Shown here: one piece after another, positions 20,182 through 24,071 of the stretch
Numbering within the stretch: the stretch's first letter is position 1
Layout: each line of letters opens with the position of its first letter
The notes under the pieces: model-generated
Told to the model about the DNA's origin: nothing
Seen by the model: the letters and a program-made list of their open reading frames with translations, nothing else
The model's database searches: none
Assembly (NCBI RefSeq): GCF_031181185.1
Contig: NZ_JAPSKZ010000012.1
Coordinates: 1 to 37,674 of the forward strand
Length of the DNA: 37,674 nt
Reading direction: 5' to 3'
From: Phenylobacterium sp.
GTDB lineage: Bacteria > Pseudomonadota > Alphaproteobacteria > Caulobacterales > Caulobacteraceae
Translations under genes and position numbers: made by a program

Positions 20182-21155
20182 TCCTCGAACACGTCGCCCC
20201 AGCCCAGCCGGCGGGCCTTGGCGTAGGCGGCCTTCTCGCGGCGGCCGACGAAGCGGGTCTGCGCGCCTTCGGGGCCGCACAGGCGCAGCTCGATGCCCGG
20301 CTTGCCGGCGCGCGGCGGCGTCAGCACCCGCGCCCGGCGCGTCTCGGCCGCCACCGTGGGACGGGCCGCCAGCAGATAGGCGAACTTCTCGTCCTCGAAC
20401 GGCAGCTCGGCGCCCTTGGCTAGGCGGTGGTCGCGTGAGCGGGGCAGGCGCACGCTGAAGTGACACCAGTCGGGGCCCGTCAGCGGGCAGGCGGCGTGGT
20501 GCGGGCAGGGCGCCAGGATCGCCGCCCCTTCGTCGATCAGCGCGTCCCGCGCCTTGAGCAGCCGGGCGAAGCCGGCCGGCGTGCCGGGCTCGACAAGCGC
20601 CAGCACGCCCTCGCAGGCGGTCCAGAGCCGGCGGACCAGCGGTCCCTGTGCGGGGTCCGGTATCTCCGCCAGCGCATAGCTCGCCATGACCAGGTCGGCG
20701 GCCGGCAGCTCGGCGGCGGCGGTCAGGTCCGCGCGGCGCGCGTCGGCCTGGCGCAGCGCCTCGGGCCCGGCCTGCGCCAGCCGGTCGGCCAGCGCCAAGA
20801 AGGGCGCGCTGGCGTCCAGCCAGGTCACCGTGCCGATGTCCGGAAAGGCCTCCAGCGCCGCCCAGCTCCCGCCGCCGGGTCCTGCGCCCGCGTCCAACAG
20901 ACGGGCCGGCGCGAAGTCGGGCGCCATCCGGCGCGCCTCGGCGAAGACCGCGGCGCAGGCGGCGTAGGTGGCCGGCAGGCGGGCCAGCGCATAGGCGAGC
21001 GCGTCCTCGGGCCCTCGGATCGCACGCGCCGAGGTGCCGCCGGAGCGGTAGGCGGCGGTGGTCGCGGCCGTCCGCTCGGCGAGTCCCTTGCGGGACACGC
21101 CTTCCAGCTCGCGCGCGATGGCGGCCTTCAGCGGCGGCGGCAGGTCAGGCGACAG
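20178..21155 (-). CDS. Rsm22/METTL17-family small-subunit-associated methyltransferase-like protein
   Basis: Class I SAM motif [37 protein letters not shown]-terminal [14 protein letters not shown]-type tail. Homologous-looking N-terminus [28 protein letters not shown] extends upstream of GTG 21098 to a CTG at 21155. Confidence 0.85.
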
Positions 21156-23472
21156 CTTCGGTCTGGGTCTTGAGGATCTCGTCGATCACCGCGGGGTCTT
21201 CCAGGCCCGCGACATCGCCTGCCGGCTGGCCCTCGGCGATGCGCTGCAGGATTGGCCGCACGATCTCGCCCGCCGCCGTGCGCGGCAGGCGGCCGAAGTG
21301 GATGAACCCCGGGACTGCGCCCTCGCCCAGCTCCCGCCGCAGCATGGCGCGGATGTCGGCCCGCATGATGTCGGTCGGCTGGAAGCCGCGCTCCAGGGTC
21401 AGGAACAGGGCCAGGCCCCTGGCGCCGGCGTCCAGCACCACGGCTTCGGCCACCGGCGCATTCTTGATCAGCAGCTGCTCGACGTCGGCGGCGGGGAACA
21501 CCTTGCCGCCCACGTAGATCACGTCCGTCTGGGTCCGCGCGGCGCGGTTCTTCACCAGGTCGTCGACGACCGCGGGGTCGGCCAGCGTCGAGGTGTCGCC
21601 CAGGTTCGACAGGTCGTCCTCGGCGATCTTGCGCAGGATGCGGCGCATGATCTTGCCCGACCGCGTCTTGGGCAGGCCGGGCGCGAACTGGATGACGTCG
21701 GGCGCGGCGAACGGCCCGATCTCCCGCCGCACATGGCCGCGCAGGTCCACCTGCAGGATCTCCGAGGCCTCGACGCCCACCTTCAAGGTCACGAAGCAGT
21801 AGATGCCCTGGCCCTTGATCTCGTGCGGATAGCCCACGACCGCGGCCTCGGCGACGGCGTCATGGCCGACGAGGGCGCTCTCGATCTCGGCGGTGCCCAG
21901 GCGATGGCCCGAGACGTTGATCACGTCGTCCACCCGGCCGGTGATCCAGTAGTAGCCGTCCTCGTCCCGGCGCGCGCCGTCCCCGGTGAAGTACTTGCCG
22001 GGATAGGTCGTGAAATAGGTGTCGATGAAGCGCTGGTGGTCGCCATAGACGGTGCGCATCTGGCCAGGCCAGCTGTCGGTCAGGCACAGGTTGCCCGAGG
22101 TCGCGCCGTCCAGCGGCTTGCCGTCGGCGTCGACCAGCTGCGGCTTGATCCCCGGCAACGGCTGGGCGCAGGAGCCGGGCTTCAGCGCATGCGCGCCTGG
22201 CAGCGGGCTCATCAGACAGGCGCCCGTCTCGGTCTGCCACCAGGTGTCGACAATCGGGCAGCGGCCCTCGCCCACCACCCGGTGGTACCAGCGCCAGGCT
22301 TCCGGATTGATCGGTTCGCCCACGGTGCCCAGCAGTCGGATGGTGTGGCGGCTGGCCTTCCTCACCGGCTCCTCGCCCTCGCGCATCAGGGCGCGGATGG
22401 CCGTGGGCGCGGTGTAGAAGATCTCGACCTTGTGCTTGTCGCAGACCTCCCAGAAGCGCGACGAGGTCGGGAAGTTCGGCACGCCTTCGAAGATCAGGGT
22501 CGTGGCGCCGTTCGCGAGGGGGCCATAGACGACGTAGCTGTGGCCGGTCACCCAGCCCACGTCGGCGGTGCACCAGAAGATCTCGCCCGGCCGGTAGTCG
22601 AACACGACCTCATGGGTCCAGCTGGCCCAGGCCAGGTAGCCGCCGGTGGTGTGCAGCACGCCCTTCGGCTTCCCCGTCGAGCCCGACGTGTAGAGGATGA
22701 ACAGCGGGTCCTCGGCGTTCATAGGCTCCGGGTCGCAGGTGTCCGGGACGGTGTTCTTCAGGTCGCCGAAATAGACGTCACGGCCCTCCACCATCGGAAC
22801 CTCTGTGGGCGTGCGCCGCACGACGATCACGTCGGTGACGCCCGGGCAGGACTTCAGCGCCTCGTCCACATTGGCCTTCAGCGGCACGACCTTGCCGCCC
22901 CGCAGACCCTCGTTGGCGGTGATGACGATCTTGGAGTCGCAGTCCTGGATGCGGCCGGCGAGGCTGTCGGGCGAGAAGCCGCCGAACACGACCGAATGCA
23001 CTGCCCCGATCCGCGCACAGGCCAGCATGGCGGCGGCCGCGGCCGGGATCATCGGCAGGTAGATGGTGACCCGGTCGCCCTTCTTGACGCCCTTCATCTT
23101 CAGGACGTTCGCCCAGCGGCACACCAGGGCCAGCAGCTGCTTGTACGTCAGGGCGTCATACGACTGGCCGTCGTCGCTCTCCCAGATGACCGCGATCTGA
23201 TCGCCGCGCTCCGGGATGTGGCGGTCCAGGCAGTTCACCGAGACGTTCAGCACGCCGTCGGCGAACCAGCGGATGCGGAAGTCATCCTTGTCGAACGAGA
23301 CGTCCTTCACCTGGGTGAAGGGCGTGATCCAGTCCAGCCGTCGGCCGATGTCGCCCCAGAAGCCGTCGGGATCCTCGTCCGCCCGCTTGCATGCGGCGGC
23401 GTAGCCCGCGGCGTCCAGATGGGCGCGCTTGGCCCATTCCGCGGGAACCGGGAAAACCTCGCCGTCCGACAT
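21145..23472 (-). CDS. acs: Acetyl-CoA synthetase with an additional C-terminal domain copy
   Basis: [107 protein letters not shown], then about 132 extra aa. Confidence 0.96.
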
Positions 23473-23600
23473 GCTGACGCTCCTCACACGCGACCGATGC
23501 AGGACGAGTATGCGGAGTGACCCCCCTCACGCAACACGCCGCAGGGGATAACGCCTCGGCCAAGCTTGCCGTGACTCAGCGCCGCCGGCATTTTCCGCCG

Positions 23601-24071
23601 ATGCTTCGATCGGGTGCGGTGGTGGCGCTGGGGGCGCTGGCTTTGGCTTTGGGCGGCTGCGAGGGCCGCGCCAAGGCCGATGCCGCCGCGAGCGCCGAGC
23701 GCCTGCTGGCGGCTGCGCAGGCTGGCGACCGCGTCGCGTTCGAGGCCGAGATCGACCGCGACGCCGTGCGCGAGGACGTCCGGCGTCAGCTGGTCGAGCT
23801 GGCCCGCGGCCAGGGGCTTGAGGTCGATGGCGGGCCGTCCGAGTTCGCCCTGGACCGGATGATCAGCCCCGACGCCTTCCACGTCGTGCGCTCCCAAGAC
23901 GAAGAGCCCCTCAAGGCGCGGATGAAGGTCGCGGACGGCAAGGTCTGCCTGCCGGCGGACGACGCCGCCGACCGATGCCTGCTCACCTTCGGCAAGAGCG
24001 ACAAACGCTGGCGTCTCGTGGGGATGCAGGCCATGGGTCTGACCATCCAGGTCGCCGAGGCGGGCGACTAG
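23601..24071 (+). CDS. Putative lipoprotein, DUF2939-like
   Basis: MLRSGAVVALGALALALGGCEGRAKADAAASAERLLAAAQAGDRVAFEAEIDRDAVREDVRRQL; lipobox LGGC; start chosen inside the longer track ORF. Confidence 0.7.
   Translation: MLRSGAVVALGALALALGGCEGRAKADAAASAERLLAAAQAGDRVAFEAEIDRDAVREDVRRQLVELARGQGLEVDGGPSEFALDRMISPDAFHVVRSQDEEPLKARMKVADGKVCLPADDAADRCLLTFGKSDKRWRLVGMQAMGLTIQVAEAGD

Follow-up and report, generated by a model that had tools for sequence, protein, structure and literature searches.

Two features make acetyl-CoA synthetase (Acs) a textbook enzyme: its domain alternation and its control through lysine acetylation. In the ANL superfamily, the A8 hairpin and the A10 lysine enter the active site of the N-domain in the two catalytic states, and a single C-terminal domain with an end near 650 aa is typical of Acs, if not strictly defining. 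The acs gene in the stretch of Phenylobacterium sp. DNA analysed here (37,674 nucleotides of contig NZ_JAPSKZ010000012.1; hereafter, the window) does not conform to this layout, as its product comprises 775 aa and contains two domains of the AMP-binding_C family (PF13193), designated C1 and C2. What does the second C-terminal domain do? Residues are numbered according to S. enterica Acs, in which K609 is the catalytic and acetylatable lysine.

The frame of acs has no stop codon at the usual Acs end and runs on, as a sequence-only reading of the locus had stated. The open reading frame occupies the complement of 21145-23487 and encodes 780 aa when counted from a GTG; with the ATG at 23472 as the start, the product has 775 aa (Table 1). 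The full protein scores 1045.9 bits against TIGR02188 (cut-off 724.95) and 1115 bits against PRK00174 (cut-off 657) in NCBIfam and is, by these profiles, an equivalog-level AMP-forming acetyl-CoA synthetase across the N-domain and C-domain. In Pfam, C1 matches PF13193 with 99 bits and retains the catalytic A10 lysine. C2 matches the same family with 34.9 bits in the search of the genome, or 34.3 bits (E 4.5e-8) when searched as a lone domain, the curated gathering cut-off being 24.5 bits.

Table 1. Features of the tandem acs gene (positions in the window).
Feature	Position	Strand	Basis
acs, acetyl-CoA synthetase with tandem C-terminal domains, 775 aa	21145..23472	-	Pfam, NCBIfam, orthologous tandem ORFs in 37 other Phenylobacterium species genomes
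ACAS_N domain (PF16177)	23230..23403	-	Pfam, 68.8 bits
AMP-binding N-domain (PF00501)	22078..23226	-	Pfam, 285 bits; an 11-residue motif and DTWWQTETG intact
C1, catalytic C-terminal domain	21544..21933	-	PF13193 at 21652-21888; catalytic Lys codon 21652-21654 (PKTRSGK)
C2, second C-terminal domain, non-catalytic	21148..21540	-	PF13193 at 21268-21483; AF2, Foldseek
Glu codon of C2 at the catalytic/acetylatable Lys position (K609 of S. enterica Acs)	21265..21267	-	Alignment
C2 helix of 17 residues (S. enterica positions 572-588), most constrained C2 segment	21325..21375	-	Alignment, entropy

Both Pfam and NCBIfam support the earlier proposal that the extra segment is a tandem copy of the C-domain of Acs itself; the length of about 132 aa given for it needs a small correction, C2 proper comprising about 131 aa. 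The best NCBIfam family for C2 alone is acetate--CoA ligase (65.8 bits, E 2.5e-18), followed by propionate--CoA ligase (37.7 bits), and its top match in the PDB is the C-domain of S. enterica Acs (E 3.2e-16). The fusion of a C-domain from a foreign acyl-CoA synthetase was rejected, C2 being nearest to Acs and located in the genus's own acs locus. An AF2 model of C2, computed with seven related domains, reached a pLDDT of 88.5 and a pTM of 0.84, and superimposes to S. enterica Acs C-domains with TM values of 0.70-0.78 (Foldseek). The Acs C-domain fold is therefore predicted with confidence for C2, as the sequence-only reading had anticipated. The full-length model, built from four sequences, is poor (pLDDT 52.7), so no claim is made on the domain arrangement. 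By profile score and predicted fold C2 belongs to AMP-binding_C, yet it does not qualify as a catalytically competent ANL C-domain, as the A10 lysine is gone and the A8 hairpin unconserved.

The tandem gene is real and lineage-specific. A genus-wide search, after which the loci were read, showed that 38 of the 101 Phenylobacterium species genomes carry tandem acs, at one syntenic locus. The tandem ORF recurs in an independent species, Phenylobacterium sp. J426, whose C2 is 76% identical to that of the window, and 36 more species genomes share the arrangement; the single-domain Acs of the genus end at about 650 aa. An assembly or frameshift artefact, which the earlier reading had kept in view, was rejected on the agreement of the 38 genomes, including the 4.1 Mb single contig of J426. 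Outside the genus, no adjacent pair of AMP-binding_C domains was found in the order, class and phylum samples, which are samples and not censuses, nor among the family matches listed. A scan of 84,980 genomes returned J426 as the sole match; because it detects no more than close relatives, and passed over the remaining Phenylobacterium tandems, other tandem Acs may exist elsewhere.

The neighbourhood of acs is common to loci with and without C2. An Rsm22-like methyltransferase and an M16 peptidase lie downstream in most loci, and upstream, nearly every tandem locus that is long enough to show it has a small lipoprotein-like gene. This gene is divergent from acs in the window (23517-24071, + strand); it is also upstream of acs in the single-domain species G218, and was not detected beside acs in two other single-domain species (L093 and L094). 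Two contigs of metagenome-assembled genomes from the tandem clade have interrupted frames: one carries an in-frame stop in C2 and then resumes in another frame (L089, genome G186), and the other has an in-frame stop within C1 near the contig start (L073, genome G185). These stops may reflect assembly errors or young pseudogenes.

The history of the duplication was reconstructed from trees. On the tree of the Acs N-domain, the tandem label requires 3 changes, compared with 21.6 for shuffled labels, and a tree that forces all tandem sequences and G118, a single-domain species, into one clade is not significantly worse (delta lnL 0.96, p-AU 0.47). All C2 copies form one group separate from all C1 copies (SH-aLRT 97). 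These trees are most simply explained by one in-place, in-frame duplication in the ancestor of a large Phenylobacterium clade, with one clear later loss; repeated independent gains are not needed, as a single gain is not rejected by the tree test. The loss is that of G118 (locus L028), in which the coding sequence of acs ends with DLVRNRAE-TSASA-stop. In its clade-mates C2 starts with forms like NRAEDG and ends with forms like TPTSA or SPASA, and the G118 end joins the opening residues of the C1-C2 linker (NRAE) to a C2-like terminus, the junction to be expected from an in-frame C2 deletion. No remnants of C2 were found downstream of the single-domain acs genes of G093, G118 and G218. G093 and G218, which are without C2 and have ancestral helix residues in C1, probably split off before the duplication.

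The alignment confirms the Lys-to-Glu change reported earlier for C2 of the window, and the loss extends through the clade. Lys occupies the position of K609 in 35 of 35 aligned tandem C1 copies, whereas all 37 readable C2 copies, partial loci included, have another residue: Glu in 25, Ala in 5, Arg and His in 2 each, and Gly, Ser and Asp in 1 each. The adenylation lysine was lost early from C2, and the A8 hairpin of this domain has drifted. Non-synonymous change is several times faster in C2 than in the rest of the protein. In six sister or near-sister pairs, however, the differences in C2 are distributed over the three codon positions as 84/76/275, with 63% at third positions. In close pairs with low dS, the dN/dS of C2 is 0.23-0.37, compared with 0.08-0.24 for the N-domain; distant pairs give higher values, for which the Nei-Gojobori method is unreliable at the high GC content of this genus. 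For the sister pairs that were examined, C2 evolves fast yet is under purifying selection, and is not decaying. The description of C2 as degenerate has to be qualified accordingly.

What has been maintained in C2 is concentrated in one helix. Residues 572-588 constitute the most conserved segment of C2 (mean entropy 0.85, versus 1.06-1.88 elsewhere), with the motif (S/T)D(V/I)LxA(D/E)(L/I)KGxxRRExG, and the region of the A8 hairpin is the least conserved (1.88, versus 0.08 in C1). In tandem C1, by contrast, no segment varies more than this helix (0.81, versus 0.08-0.48 for the others). Positions 573, 577, 585, 593 and 603 are invariant in C2, and among these D573, A577 and R585 are variable in C1. 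At several positions that separate tandem C1 from the single-domain congeners, C2 displays the state of the congeners, most clearly at 574, 580 and 596. The congeners have K580 and I/V574 in 16 of 16 sequences; C2 keeps K580 in 31 of 34 copies and V/I574 in all 34, whereas tandem C1 has R580 in 33 of 34 and mostly A or S at 574. Position 596 is Val in the congeners, mostly kept in C2, and mostly Ile in tandem C1. For the helix alone, C2 and C1 are similarly close to the single-domain consensus (0.66 and 0.65, respectively), whereas outside the helix the values are 0.72-0.97 for C1 and 0.35-0.53 for C2. Single-domain Acs of other Caulobacteraceae genera likewise vary most in this helix, so the motif of the genus may be young, and its conservation in the single-domain Acs of Phenylobacterium may partly reflect shared ancestry. 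The reversal of constraint between the two copies suggests a division of labour, with catalysis in C1 and a binding role borne by the helix of C2.

Considered together, these observations are best explained by an in-place duplication after which C1 remained catalytic and C2 was selected as a pseudo-C-domain, that is, a helix-borne binding module, an account that we consider to have an even chance of being correct. The job of C2 is probably new and non-catalytic, either binding or regulatory. According to this account, C1 would stay the rotating domain with the catalytic loops, and C2, as a non-catalytic module, would retain an interaction of the helix that in single-domain relatives is carried by the sole C-domain. 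The partner could be a regulator that normally reads the C-domain of Acs, for instance a lysine acetyltransferase of the Pat/AcuA type. With the recognition surface and without the target lysine, C2 might serve as a docking site or a decoy, tuning the frequency of acetylation at the C1 lysine or the freedom of movement of C1.

Work on acetyltransferases bears on this possibility. Chimeras showed that Streptomyces lividans PatA depends, for its recognition of S. enterica Acs, on two stretches, one 8-52 residues ahead of the lysine and one 5-17 residues past it; the isolated C-domain suffices for acetylation, and for R. palustris Pat the recognised loop lies more than 20 residues ahead of the target lysine (PMC4053389). 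The helix is positioned 21-37 residues before K609. As the helix falls in the stretch read by the acetyltransferase in S. enterica Acs, the most specific hypothesis available, although a guess, is that C2 is a decoy or docking module for a reader of the C-domain. In its full form, C2 would be a built-in pseudo-substrate whose helix captures an acetyltransferase or another C-domain reader and thereby protects or gates the C1 lysine, which we regard as conceivable but doubtful. A profile search for the ATP-grasp_5 type (PF13549) found no Pat-type protein in the genome of the window, in which a sirtuin is present. Across the genus, 29 of 101 genomes have an ATP-grasp_5 match, 14 of 38 with the tandem and 15 of 63 others (p 0.18), so that a Pat acetyltransferase gene of this type shows no significant association with the tandem. 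Some Phenylobacterium species have an 893-aa Pat-like protein with CoA_binding_2, Succ_CoA_lig, ATP-grasp_5 and GNAT domains (for example, L097:922-3600, - strand).

The main rival to a decoy or docking role is oligomerisation, in which C2 would pair through the conserved helix with C2 or C1 of another chain to form dimers or filaments. D573, A577, G/A581 and R585 of C2 are spaced i, i+4, i+8 and i+12, and form a stripe with small residues on one helix face, an arrangement that would suit helix packing, and Acs is known to form oligomers and filaments (PMC11910552; PDB 8rwj). The stripe includes charged residues, however, and the face of K580 and R584 is about equally conserved, a pattern that fits the binding of a ligand or partner as well. 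We consider oligomerisation unlikely on balance, though a serious candidate; the decoy and oligomerisation roles had both been put forward from the sequence, and the conserved helix appears compatible with either.

Somewhat less probable is an autoinhibitory docking, in which C2 would compete with C1 for the N-domain and brake catalysis, like the C-terminus of AcuA on AcsA. Steric control of the C-domain is real in B. subtilis (PMC11910552), and C2 keeps the fold, the equivalent of the CoA-side Arg584 in 34 of 35 copies and Arg at 585 in 35 of 35. Against this, C2 lacks both elements that enter the N-domain, as the A8 region has an entropy of 1.88 and the A10 lysine is always absent. The loss of the A8 hairpin and the A10 lysine makes a docking of C2 in the N-domain active site less likely, and weakens the earlier suggestion that C2 limits the rotation of the C-domain by such docking; a partner that reads the C-domain surface would fit better.

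The CoA-binding face of the C-domain could have given rise to a site that senses CoA or acetyl-CoA, as C2 keeps the equivalents of K580 (32 of 35), R584 (34 of 35) and R585 (35 of 35), and Arg584 of S. enterica Acs is a mutated target in the listed structural series. With the A8 hairpin, which lines the pantetheine tunnel, degenerate in C2, and the CoA site of Acs being shared with the N-domain, such a site is very unlikely. About as improbable is the reading that C2 is a neutral passenger, duplicated by chance, tolerated and drifting: its rapid non-synonymous change and its deletion in one species would be expected of one, but the frame is open in nearly all copies across the clade, the third-position excess is strong, five residues are invariant, and the helix is more constrained, relative to the rest of its domain, than that of C1.

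A comparison of the preferred pseudo-C-domain reading with known systems shows where the Phenylobacterium enzyme departs from them. Like typical Acs (TIGR02188/PRK00174; S. enterica 1PG3/1PG4), it has an N-domain, a hinge and a complete C1 with the catalytic motifs; unlike them, it adds a lysine-less C2 of 131 aa past the point, at about 650 aa, where typical enzymes stop. C2 scores above the gathering threshold of AMP-binding_C and shares its predicted fold, but differs from the family in the missing A10 lysine, the degenerate A8 hairpin and a constraint centred on helix 572-588. In B. subtilis, AcuA regulates AcsA by holding its C-domain, and the C-terminus of AcuA occupies the CoA site (PMC11910552). 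By analogy, the proposed models would likewise control Acs by holding or reading the C-domain, although AcuA is a separate acetyltransferase and C2 a pseudo-copy of the C-domain, fused to the enzyme. In the case of S. lividans PatA, the substrate is the C-domain of S. enterica Acs (PMC4053389; complex 4U5Y), which has recognition stretches that include the helix region, but contains the target lysine that C2 lacks. The open-access literature searched gave no account of an Acs that has two C-terminal domains, in agreement with the sequence-only reading; the enzyme belongs to the Acs family and carries an added pseudo-domain, an architecture new relative to that literature.

In G118 the role of C2 is evidently dispensable, since C2 was lost there while the helix of C1 has drifted. 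Species with and without C2, together with this natural deletion, provide material for comparison. A duplicated alternating domain that has lost its lysine, and in which constraint has moved to a helix, is a system for asking what that helix does. The tandem lineage thereby offers a handle on who reads the C-domain of Acs, and on whether the regulation of a central metabolic enzyme can come from a pseudo-domain built into it.
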